Of a stretch of DNA of 64,000 nt, positions 46,201 through 49,200 are shown piece after piece (within the stretch, counting starts at the first letter, position 1; every line of letters starts with the position of its first letter). The position numbers were made by a program, and so were the translations under genes. The notes under the pieces are model-generated. The model did not search any database, was not told the DNA's origin, and saw only the letters and a list, made by a program, of their open reading frames with translations. The stretch is from Capitulum mitella. Taxonomy: Eukaryota > Arthropoda > Thecostraca > Pollicipedomorpha > Pollicipedidae. The stretch is taken from assembly GCA_030062745.1 (NCBI GenBank), contig CP099839.1, forward strand, positions 18,352,733-18,416,732. Direction: 5' to 3'.

Positions 46201-49200
46201 AACTTCAGCTGGTCTATAGTGCTCGATTCAAGTACTAATTCAGTTTTAGTGGAAAAGGTCGTATTGTCCCTTGAAACCTCTCCGGAAAAGACATAGAACG
46301 CAATCCGTATGGCTCCTATCGTCGTCCATGCACTCGTCTTCAACCACCGCCCCTCCCTGTCCACTTAGGCCGTTGACATGCGCGAGAGATCTAAGGGGAA
46401 ACGAAAGGACACAACCTTTTTAATAATTTCCTTTGAAAACGCTGCAAAACACGTTATGCGTATCTAATGGACTCATCCATTTCGTTGGATTTGTCCTCTT
46501 CCTGAGCTTTCCATGTCGGAGGGAACGACAAATTTTTCTCAGAATCTAAGAAAATGGGACATGTGGGCATGTGGCATCCCCCTCGCTCCCATACAGACAA
46601 TAGGAGTCGGAATGTGCCGTTTCATTCTAATTTAATCCGCGCTCGAATGATAGTCAGTGCCATGCATCATACCACTGGAAAGTTTGTGATAAGCAGAGCT
46701 GGAAAAAGGGTCATTGTTACTTTGAAGAATATGTAAGCTATTTACGCCGTGCATGCATTTTCTTATGGCTGACTACATGGACCCGTCCTGGATCTCAAAG
46801 GCCGTGATTAACAAATACCAAGTAGAGGTACCAAAGTATAGATGAATGTATGCAGATACCCATACAAGTCTGATTTCTCCCATTTGTTCAGTGTTTACTT
46901 AGAAACGTCGAGTTAAAGAAACAGCTATCTCTGCGCCGCAGCTCCGCGGGCGCCGGTGCCGAACGCAGAATAAAATTGACGGAAACTCATTTTTTGTGTT
47001 CCTTTATTTGAGTAAAGCATGCCTTAATGATCTGTGTTTCTTGATATTCGTGGCTCGTTTCATGGCTTCTCATTCTGAATTTTCGAAAAAATCGGCGGTT
47101 ACCAATATCCTCAATTGGCGGAACTCTGTTCGCGCAAGTCCGTTTATTGCAGACGTTCGCAACTTTTTAGGGCCATTTTTAAAATTTTCTATTAGTTCCA
47201 AGTCATTCAGAGCAGATTTAAAGGCGGTGCATGTGTGCTCATACAAGTTATCGGTGACCTGAACTCAGGTCAATGCTTGCAGGTTAATGATAGTTTGGTA
47301 AATGAAGATCATCGGAGGTCTCCATCAGAGACGCAGCCAGGATTTCCTTAAGGGAGGAGGGCAGGCGGAGCTAAGTGTGAACTGAAATCATACAAAAACC
47401 GCCTGCTGGGAAGACGACGTGCGATGATTTTCACAAAAAATGCGGGCCTTAGGGGAGGGGGCCAGGCCTACTGGGTCCTCCCTTTGGCTGCGCATATGGT
47501 CTCCATTACCTCATACCCAAAACGTTGAGAAGATTCGTCATTTCTCGAAAAAAAACGTGGCATGTCTTGAAAATGGTCTTGATCGTAGTTCAAAGACCAG
47601 AAATTTCCGCAAATCTTAGATATCAGATCTGTTGCAACTACCAAGACCTCTAATTCCAGAAAGGTTTGCGTTGATACCTTTTTTCTTTAAGTTACGGGAG
47701 GTTAAACTTTTTCGGACATACGTCCACTTGGCCTGACCTAGGTCAGAGATCTAACTTGATCTGAGGTTGGACTTTTGACATAAGATGCAGGAAAATCAAA
47801 CAAAAACTACGCGAAAATTTCGCGGTACTGCGTTTGTTCATCCTCTACCAATGTTTGAAAAACCCCAGGGACGCTGCCAACACTTCCACGTCGGGGTTGG
47901 GCAGTCTGTCATTGTAACAGTGTTAATGACGCTGAGTCCCGTCAAGCTGTTTCTCACGCTCCCATGTCTGTCATGAGTAACAGGTTCACATGCGATCTCG
48001 ACAAAATGACGGCACGCTGACCCTGGTCGTGCCCAGGCCCAGCCGGCAGGAAGCTCGAGCATCGCTGCGCCGCCTACTGCCTGAGCGATGACGACAGCAA
48101 GTTCGCCTACACTCCCGGCCAGACGTACGTCTACGCGTACAGCAGCGACGTGGAGACGACGCTGGCCGGCGACTCGGACGAGGCGTCTCGTCTTCACGTG
48201 ACTGCCACTGCGGAGATCGACGCCAACTCGGCCTGCGACTTCACGCTCTGGGTCAGTGACATGGTTAACTAGGTCTGGGATTTCATCCTCTGGGTCTGTG
48301 GTGTAGGTAATTAGGACTGCGACTTCACCCTCTGGGTCAGTGGTAAGGCTAACCAGGTATGCGACTCCACCCTCTGGGTCAGTGACATGGCCAGCTGGGT
48401 CTGTGATTTCACGCTTTGGGTCAATGTATGCGTCAAAATTTGGGTCAAAATTTGCGATTTCACCGTCTGGTTCAGCATGATTAATTCGGTCCGCGAATTC
48501 ACACTGTAGGACGGCGACGGGTCATGGCTAACTCAGATACGAATTATTTTCAACGTACTTGATGCTTTATCCATCTTACTCAGTTTTCATATCTTTATCC
48601 AATTTTTTCGCTATTTGAAGTGTTGCCACACTCAGCTCCCTCAATGGACTTTATTTTTATGTTTGCAATTCTCTCCATGACATGGAGAGCCGGTTTCCCT
48701 TTTTGTCGTGAACACTGTTACATCGCTATACTAAGAATCAAAGCGTTTCCATGCACACTCAGGTTCTAAATTAGTGTGATTATATGTGACGAGGCACAAT
48801 GAAACCTGCAACAAAACGAGGTTCGCTATTTGCGATGTCACCCGACTCCTCCGACAACCTTTGTTTCAGCTTCGAGACGTCACTCTAAGCGACTCGGATC
48901 CAAAGAACGCCGACCTGAGAAGACAGGTGGACGGCATGGCCTCGTTCAAGGAGGAGCTGGAGAGATATCCGCTCTCCTTCAGGTGCATGAATCTGTTGTA
49001 AAGATGGCAAAAGAGTCAGTCATTTGTTGGGCAGTTACTCCGCGGACAGCGCGAGTCAGCTGGGATAAACATTAATTAATTAGTAATAATTAATTAAGAA
49101 ATGGACAGGGTTATGCATAGCTCAAATTGATATCTCGAATGACACTGTTACGCTAGAAAAAGCGATTAATATCTCTGACATCCTCAGGTCAAGGTGTAAG

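Follow-up and report, generated by a model that had tools for sequence, protein, structure and literature searches.

In the 64,000-nt stretch of DNA analysed here (the window; positions are on its + strand unless stated otherwise), a 42-bp minisatellite overlaps the 3' end of exon 2 of a lipoprotein gene and continues into intron 2. We consider it probable that the array was seeded at the exon end, lies mostly in the intron, and is a tolerated, perhaps mildly leaky, accident rather than a regulator. The original prediction had left the choice between a tolerated hazard and a regulated poison switch, and we infer with good confidence that the first of these is the best reading here too. The likelihoods attached to this reading and to its alternatives are not mutually exclusive, and together they exceed one.

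TRF places the array at 48225–48423, with a period of 42, 4.7 copies, 74% matches, 0% indels and a score of 202, which makes it a minisatellite in the sense of head-to-tail copies of a 10–100-bp unit. The array is beyond chance, since 20 Markov-1 simulations of 64 kb each, in which arrays of period 20–100 with a score of at least 50 were counted, gave only 2 such arrays over all 20 runs, the best scoring 58. The five GT dinucleotides originally reported at 48252, 48294, 48336, 48378 and 48420 are all present with a spacing of exactly 42. The junction sequence said to recur at all five, CTCTGG GTCAGT, is exact at 48252, 48336 and 48378, but reads CTCTGG GTCTGT at 48294 and CTTTGG GTCAAT at 48420. 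The sequence CTCTGGGTCAGT is present at three of the five junction copies and nowhere else on the + strand of the window. When the units are cut in the phase used by the original prediction, their pairwise identity ranges from 0.57 to 0.83.

As predicted, the array crosses the end of exon 2, though its left edge lies at 48225 and not at 48236. Leftward of 48225 the likeness to the unit tails is lost, with the exon matching them at only 1–3 of 6 and 3–5 of 15 places, and thus unit 1 (48225–48266) joins the final 27 nt of exon 2 to 15 nt of intron; it reads in frame as NSACDFTLWVSDMV without a stop. Four further 42-bp units start at 48267, 48309, 48351 and 48393 (the last running to 48434) and carry the copied donors at 48294, 48336, 48378 and 48420, here called D2 to D5, with D1 at 48252. 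A separate 12-bp repeat (TRF 48415–48454) begins before the last unit ends. A half-unit scan finds the exon half again, in decayed form, at 48450–48509. The sixth copy, at 48450, scores 20.5 bits, compared with 12.0 on the + strand and 16.6 on the - strand for the best unrelated matches in the window, while a doubtful seventh at 48489 scores 14.0 bits, below the best - strand match. A comparison of 126 bp of the array with its own 477-Mb assembly, in which only the best candidates were scored and very common words skipped, returned two matches, both at this locus. Within the unit consensus (48231–48272), the two 21-nt halves have the same base at 12 of 21 places (permutation p 0.00085, uncorrected, with offset 21 the best of 23 tried), a likeness that may reflect an older 21-bp duplication.

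The gene itself is recognizable from an open frame at 54798–57419 that matches Pfam PF01347 (5.3e-42), PF09172 (3.5e-69) and PF06448 (9.6e-09) and, among PDB sequences, apolipoprotein B-100 (E 3e-44) and lipovitellin (1.9e-17). This frame shows the arrangement of a large lipid transfer protein, a Vitellogenin_N domain followed by an open beta-sheet domain, and we take the product to be apoB/apolipophorin-like, given the Pfam and PDB matches and the kinds of protein in which PF06448 occurs. A further frame at 52678–52875 matches PF01347 positions 133–180. Upstream of the gene's 873-codon frame, at 53883–54376, a 49-bp unit is repeated about 10 times. Exon 2 (48030–48251, start approximate) belongs to Vitellogenin_N (PF01347) and ends in phase 0 with ...ACDFTLW; its putative 5' splice site, D1, is TGG GTCAGT (48252–48257). 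Exon 3 (48870–48982) encodes LRDVTLSDSD...PLSF(R) and follows the acceptor TTTGTTTCAG. An antisense frame at 47841–48521 (- strand, 227 codons), spanning exon 2 and the whole array, was considered as a gene and set aside; it lies opposite the frame of exon 2 and probably exists as a by-product.

To compare the possible junctions, we scored joins at D1, D2 and D3, read-through into the intron, a donor at 48198 and exon 2 alone against PF01347. Joining exon 2 (48030–48251) to exon 3 at D1 (48251 to 48870) gives 30.8 bits, with residues 27–87 aligned to profile positions 1–61 so that the matched stretch is equally long in residues and in profile. The D2 and D3 joins give 24.7 and 24.3 bits and read-through gives 25.9 bits, and all three matches stop at profile position 52. 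Exon 2 alone (48036–48251) reaches 22.9 bits, under the curated cut-off of 24, and a join from 48198, within exon 2, scores 10.6 bits. Exon 3 alone had no match, and a PDB sequence search with exons 2 and 3 alone returned no match up to E 10. As the D1 join has the best Pfam score among the junctions scored, the protein profile supports D1 as the probable productive donor.

Of the five copies, D1 alone can be used without taking in an in-frame TAG. The unit length is a multiple of 3 and the first extra unit contains an in-frame TAG, both as predicted; the TAG lies at 48270–48272, and a second at 48312–48314. It was further claimed that downstream donors read into a stop, and this holds: any transcript spliced at a donor 3' of 48270 would carry the first TAG, and our translations for seven downstream donors all contain it. 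The second codon of units 1 to 5 reads TCG (the exon copy), TAG, TAG, CAG and TGG. Because the exon-derived unit has no stop and carries TCG where intronic units 2 and 3 have TAG, the stop seems to have arisen later, within the intronic copies, and not to have been present in the piece that was duplicated. The exon copy would then be the older state, as the coding constraint on the exon suggests.

The description of several equivalent donors does not survive closer comparison, as three of the five copies share every base from -3 to +6, the remaining two are weaker, and other GTs in the array outscore D1 on both of the matrices we used. Both matrices are crude: one was built from 11 other donors in the window, inferred by eye from reading frames (nine in a coiled-coil gene at 21–30 kb and two in the lipoprotein gene) and scored with one left out, and the second is a generic donor matrix. 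On the own-window matrix D1 scores -2.38, as do D3 and D4, with D2 at -6.77 and D5 at -4.42, while the 11 inferred donors score 3.48 to 11.7. Four other array GTs score higher than D1 on this matrix, namely 48357 (48357–48362, CAG GTATGC; 7.7), 48343 (48343–48348, GTG GTAAGG; 6.18), 48307 (48307–48312, TAG GTAATT; 2.62) and 48426 in unit 5 (48426–48431, AAT GTATGC; 1.01); the first two lie within the range of the inferred donors, and D1 lies below all 11. The generic matrix gives D1 4.79, below 10 of the 11 inferred donors, and 8.3, 8.33, 7.46 and 4.86 for 48357, 48343, 48307 and 48426, the last only narrowly above D1. The U1 pairing energy is -7.0 for D1, -8.5 for 48343, -7.5 for 48357, -6.7 for 48307 and -1.9 for 48426, so that it backs only 48343 and 48357 as stronger than D1, with 48426 far weaker. 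The main threat to correct splicing may therefore lie in 48343 and 48357, two GTs created by mutation within the array, rather than in the copied donors. RNA structure that would hide only the downstream sites was also considered and rejected, as one fold of 48190–48560 pairs all five donors to varying degrees.

The history that we favour would begin with the tandem copying of a 42-bp stretch, made up of 27 nt from the end of exon 2 and the 15 nt that open intron 2, which seeded the array at this one locus only. The array would then have grown and decayed inside intron 2, spreading in all likelihood from the exon into the intron. Splicing most likely proceeds from 48252, since among tandem donors of equal strength the one furthest upstream is preferred: in Mikl et al. 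2019 (PMC6783452), a designed splice-site library showed a preference for the first of equal donors and for the stronger of unequal ones. If this first-donor preference also holds in the present genome, the copied junction would have been tolerable at birth. Taken with the array GTs that score above D1 on both matrices, the stronger-site rule means that leakage could be large. Use of a downstream donor would bring in the TAG at 48270 and give a shortened transcript, probably degraded by NMD. The array itself is presumably without function.

The scores of D1 bear on the possibility that the stronger array GTs make a real fraction of transcripts unproductive, without regulation and as a mild load. 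We regard this as unlikely on its own terms, and it shades into the tolerated accident. It draws on the position of D1 below all 11 inferred donors on the own-window matrix (whose lowest member is 3.48), with 48343 and 48357 inside their range, and below 10 of 11 on the generic one. Against this, a matrix made from 11 sites discriminates poorly, as D1 is also outscored on it by five of the eight GTs that lie in exon 2 (the best, 48125, at 6.32), in contrast to none of the eight on the generic matrix; moreover, 5 of the 11 inferred donors, as well as the GTs at 48307 and 48426, pair with U1 less stably than D1 does. A bolder version, in which the array has bred 5' splice sites stronger than the original and intron 2 brakes lipoprotein dose according to its length, is in our view highly unlikely. 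Were it true, longer alleles would yield more truncated, degraded transcripts of a major lipoprotein, and the array would be a heritable, rapidly mutable dose dial. Regulated choice between D1 and the downstream array donors, setting lipoprotein dose via truncation and NMD, is the poison switch of the original prediction. Its alternative sites do bring in an in-frame stop, included by all seven translated donors, and three array GTs (48307, 48343 and 48357) score higher than D1 on either matrix. However, a stop is expected in 14 uniform random codons with a probability of 49%, so its presence is at chance level, and two of the four intronic units lost or never had the TAG. Arrays are also common in the assembly (24 in a 199.5-kb sample, described below), with 6 of the 24 donor-rich as well, and no regulatory signal was found among the few looked for. 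We found no positive evidence for the switch, and we judge it very improbable.

Some features of the units hint weakly at constraint or homogenisation. Units 1–4 all share the junction-spanning core CTCTGGGTC without change, a run of 9 among 23 invariant columns of 42 (permutation p 0.037), with unit 5 deviating to CTTTGGGTC, and the exon half shows 8 of 84 changes compared with 15 of 84 in the intron half (p 0.18). The unchanged core could be read as an intronic enhancer, in which the repeated TGGGTC supplies G triplets that aid a weak D1, and seven GGG do occur in 48252–48520. That number falls between the window's 75th (5) and 90th (8) percentiles for 269-bp stretches and is unremarkable, and 1 of 11 introns compared has 15; a role of G triplets in splicing is known from vertebrates, which also counts against the enhancer, and we find it scarcely credible. 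Birth of intron 2 by tandem duplication of coding sequence is a claim about history that is compatible with the other readings. The agreement of the two 21-nt unit halves would fit it, as would the fission yeast introns that are reported to span tandem exon copies (PMC4974935). Yet the 16 best matches of the half-unit scan include no unit copy on the acceptor side, and among them exon-half copies occur only near the 5' end of intron 2. A candidate copy at the acceptor, seen by eye in a TTTGCGATGTCACCC stretch near 48830, was rejected, as it is absent from those 16 matches. Such an origin is thus very doubtful, and a tolerated minisatellite seeded at the exon end is the reading that we retain.

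The wider assembly provides a background for this array. We sampled 20 stretches of 10 kb, drawn from 15 of its contigs and amounting to 199.5 kb once N are left out. Arrays of period 20–100 with a score of at least 100 numbered 24 there and made up 2.4% of bases, with 7 of the 20 stretches having none; the 64-kb window contains eight, covering 1849 bp or 2.9% of bases. We called an array donor-rich when one strand carried at least two donor-like sites, amounting to at least half the number of units, which does not imply one site per unit. Six of the 24 background arrays are donor-rich, and the 42-bp array has six donor-like sites on the + strand in the same count. If arrays were placed at random, roughly 1 in 40 exon borders would lie inside one, an upper guide given that exons are probably avoided. 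As arrays occupy about 2.4% of the sampled bases, overlaps with exon ends are expected repeatedly and, extrapolating from this density, should occur many times per genome. The array is real and, both in kind and in setting, ordinary. Elsewhere in the window, in introns of the coiled-coil gene, 52-bp units (21274–21592) start about 70 nt after the putative donor at 21207, and 38-bp units (27133–27302) stop about 60 nt before a putative acceptor near 27365. A stretch on another contig of the assembly (L008) contains two neighbouring 42-bp arrays, at 5279–5621 (8.2 copies) and 5725–5983 (6.2 copies); by eye, units 1–3 of the first are unlike the 42-bp unit of the window.

If D1 alone is used, the locus would illustrate, in nature, how the first-donor rule works on splice sites that have been copied; if array donors are used, it would indicate that a growing minisatellite can tune gene dose. 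In both cases, it advises caution in gene prediction for minisatellite-rich genomes.

Several known systems resemble this locus in part; none of the papers that our literature searches retrieved treated this gene in its species. Internal tandem repeats at human exon-intron boundaries, with 30-bp units, a mean of 4 repeats and 27 intron modifications (PMC2812944, 2009), are likewise minisatellites at an exon-intron boundary; those repeats vary between paralogs and are backed by transcripts, whereas the array here is a single locus known from its DNA alone. The C. elegans CeRep25B element (PMC4039745) is also an intronic minisatellite beside a splice site, but is described as a family found at many places and near alternative splicing, in contrast to one place seen in genomic sequence only. 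As with the tandem alternative splice sites (TASS) of PMC8055015, several candidate splice sites lie close together at one exon; unlike those, the sites here arose by array growth, are 42 bp apart and are candidate donors only. In the fission yeast case (PMC4974935), exon-end sequence is likewise tandemly copied within an intron, whereas the stretch copied at this locus spans a junction that was probably already present before the array.
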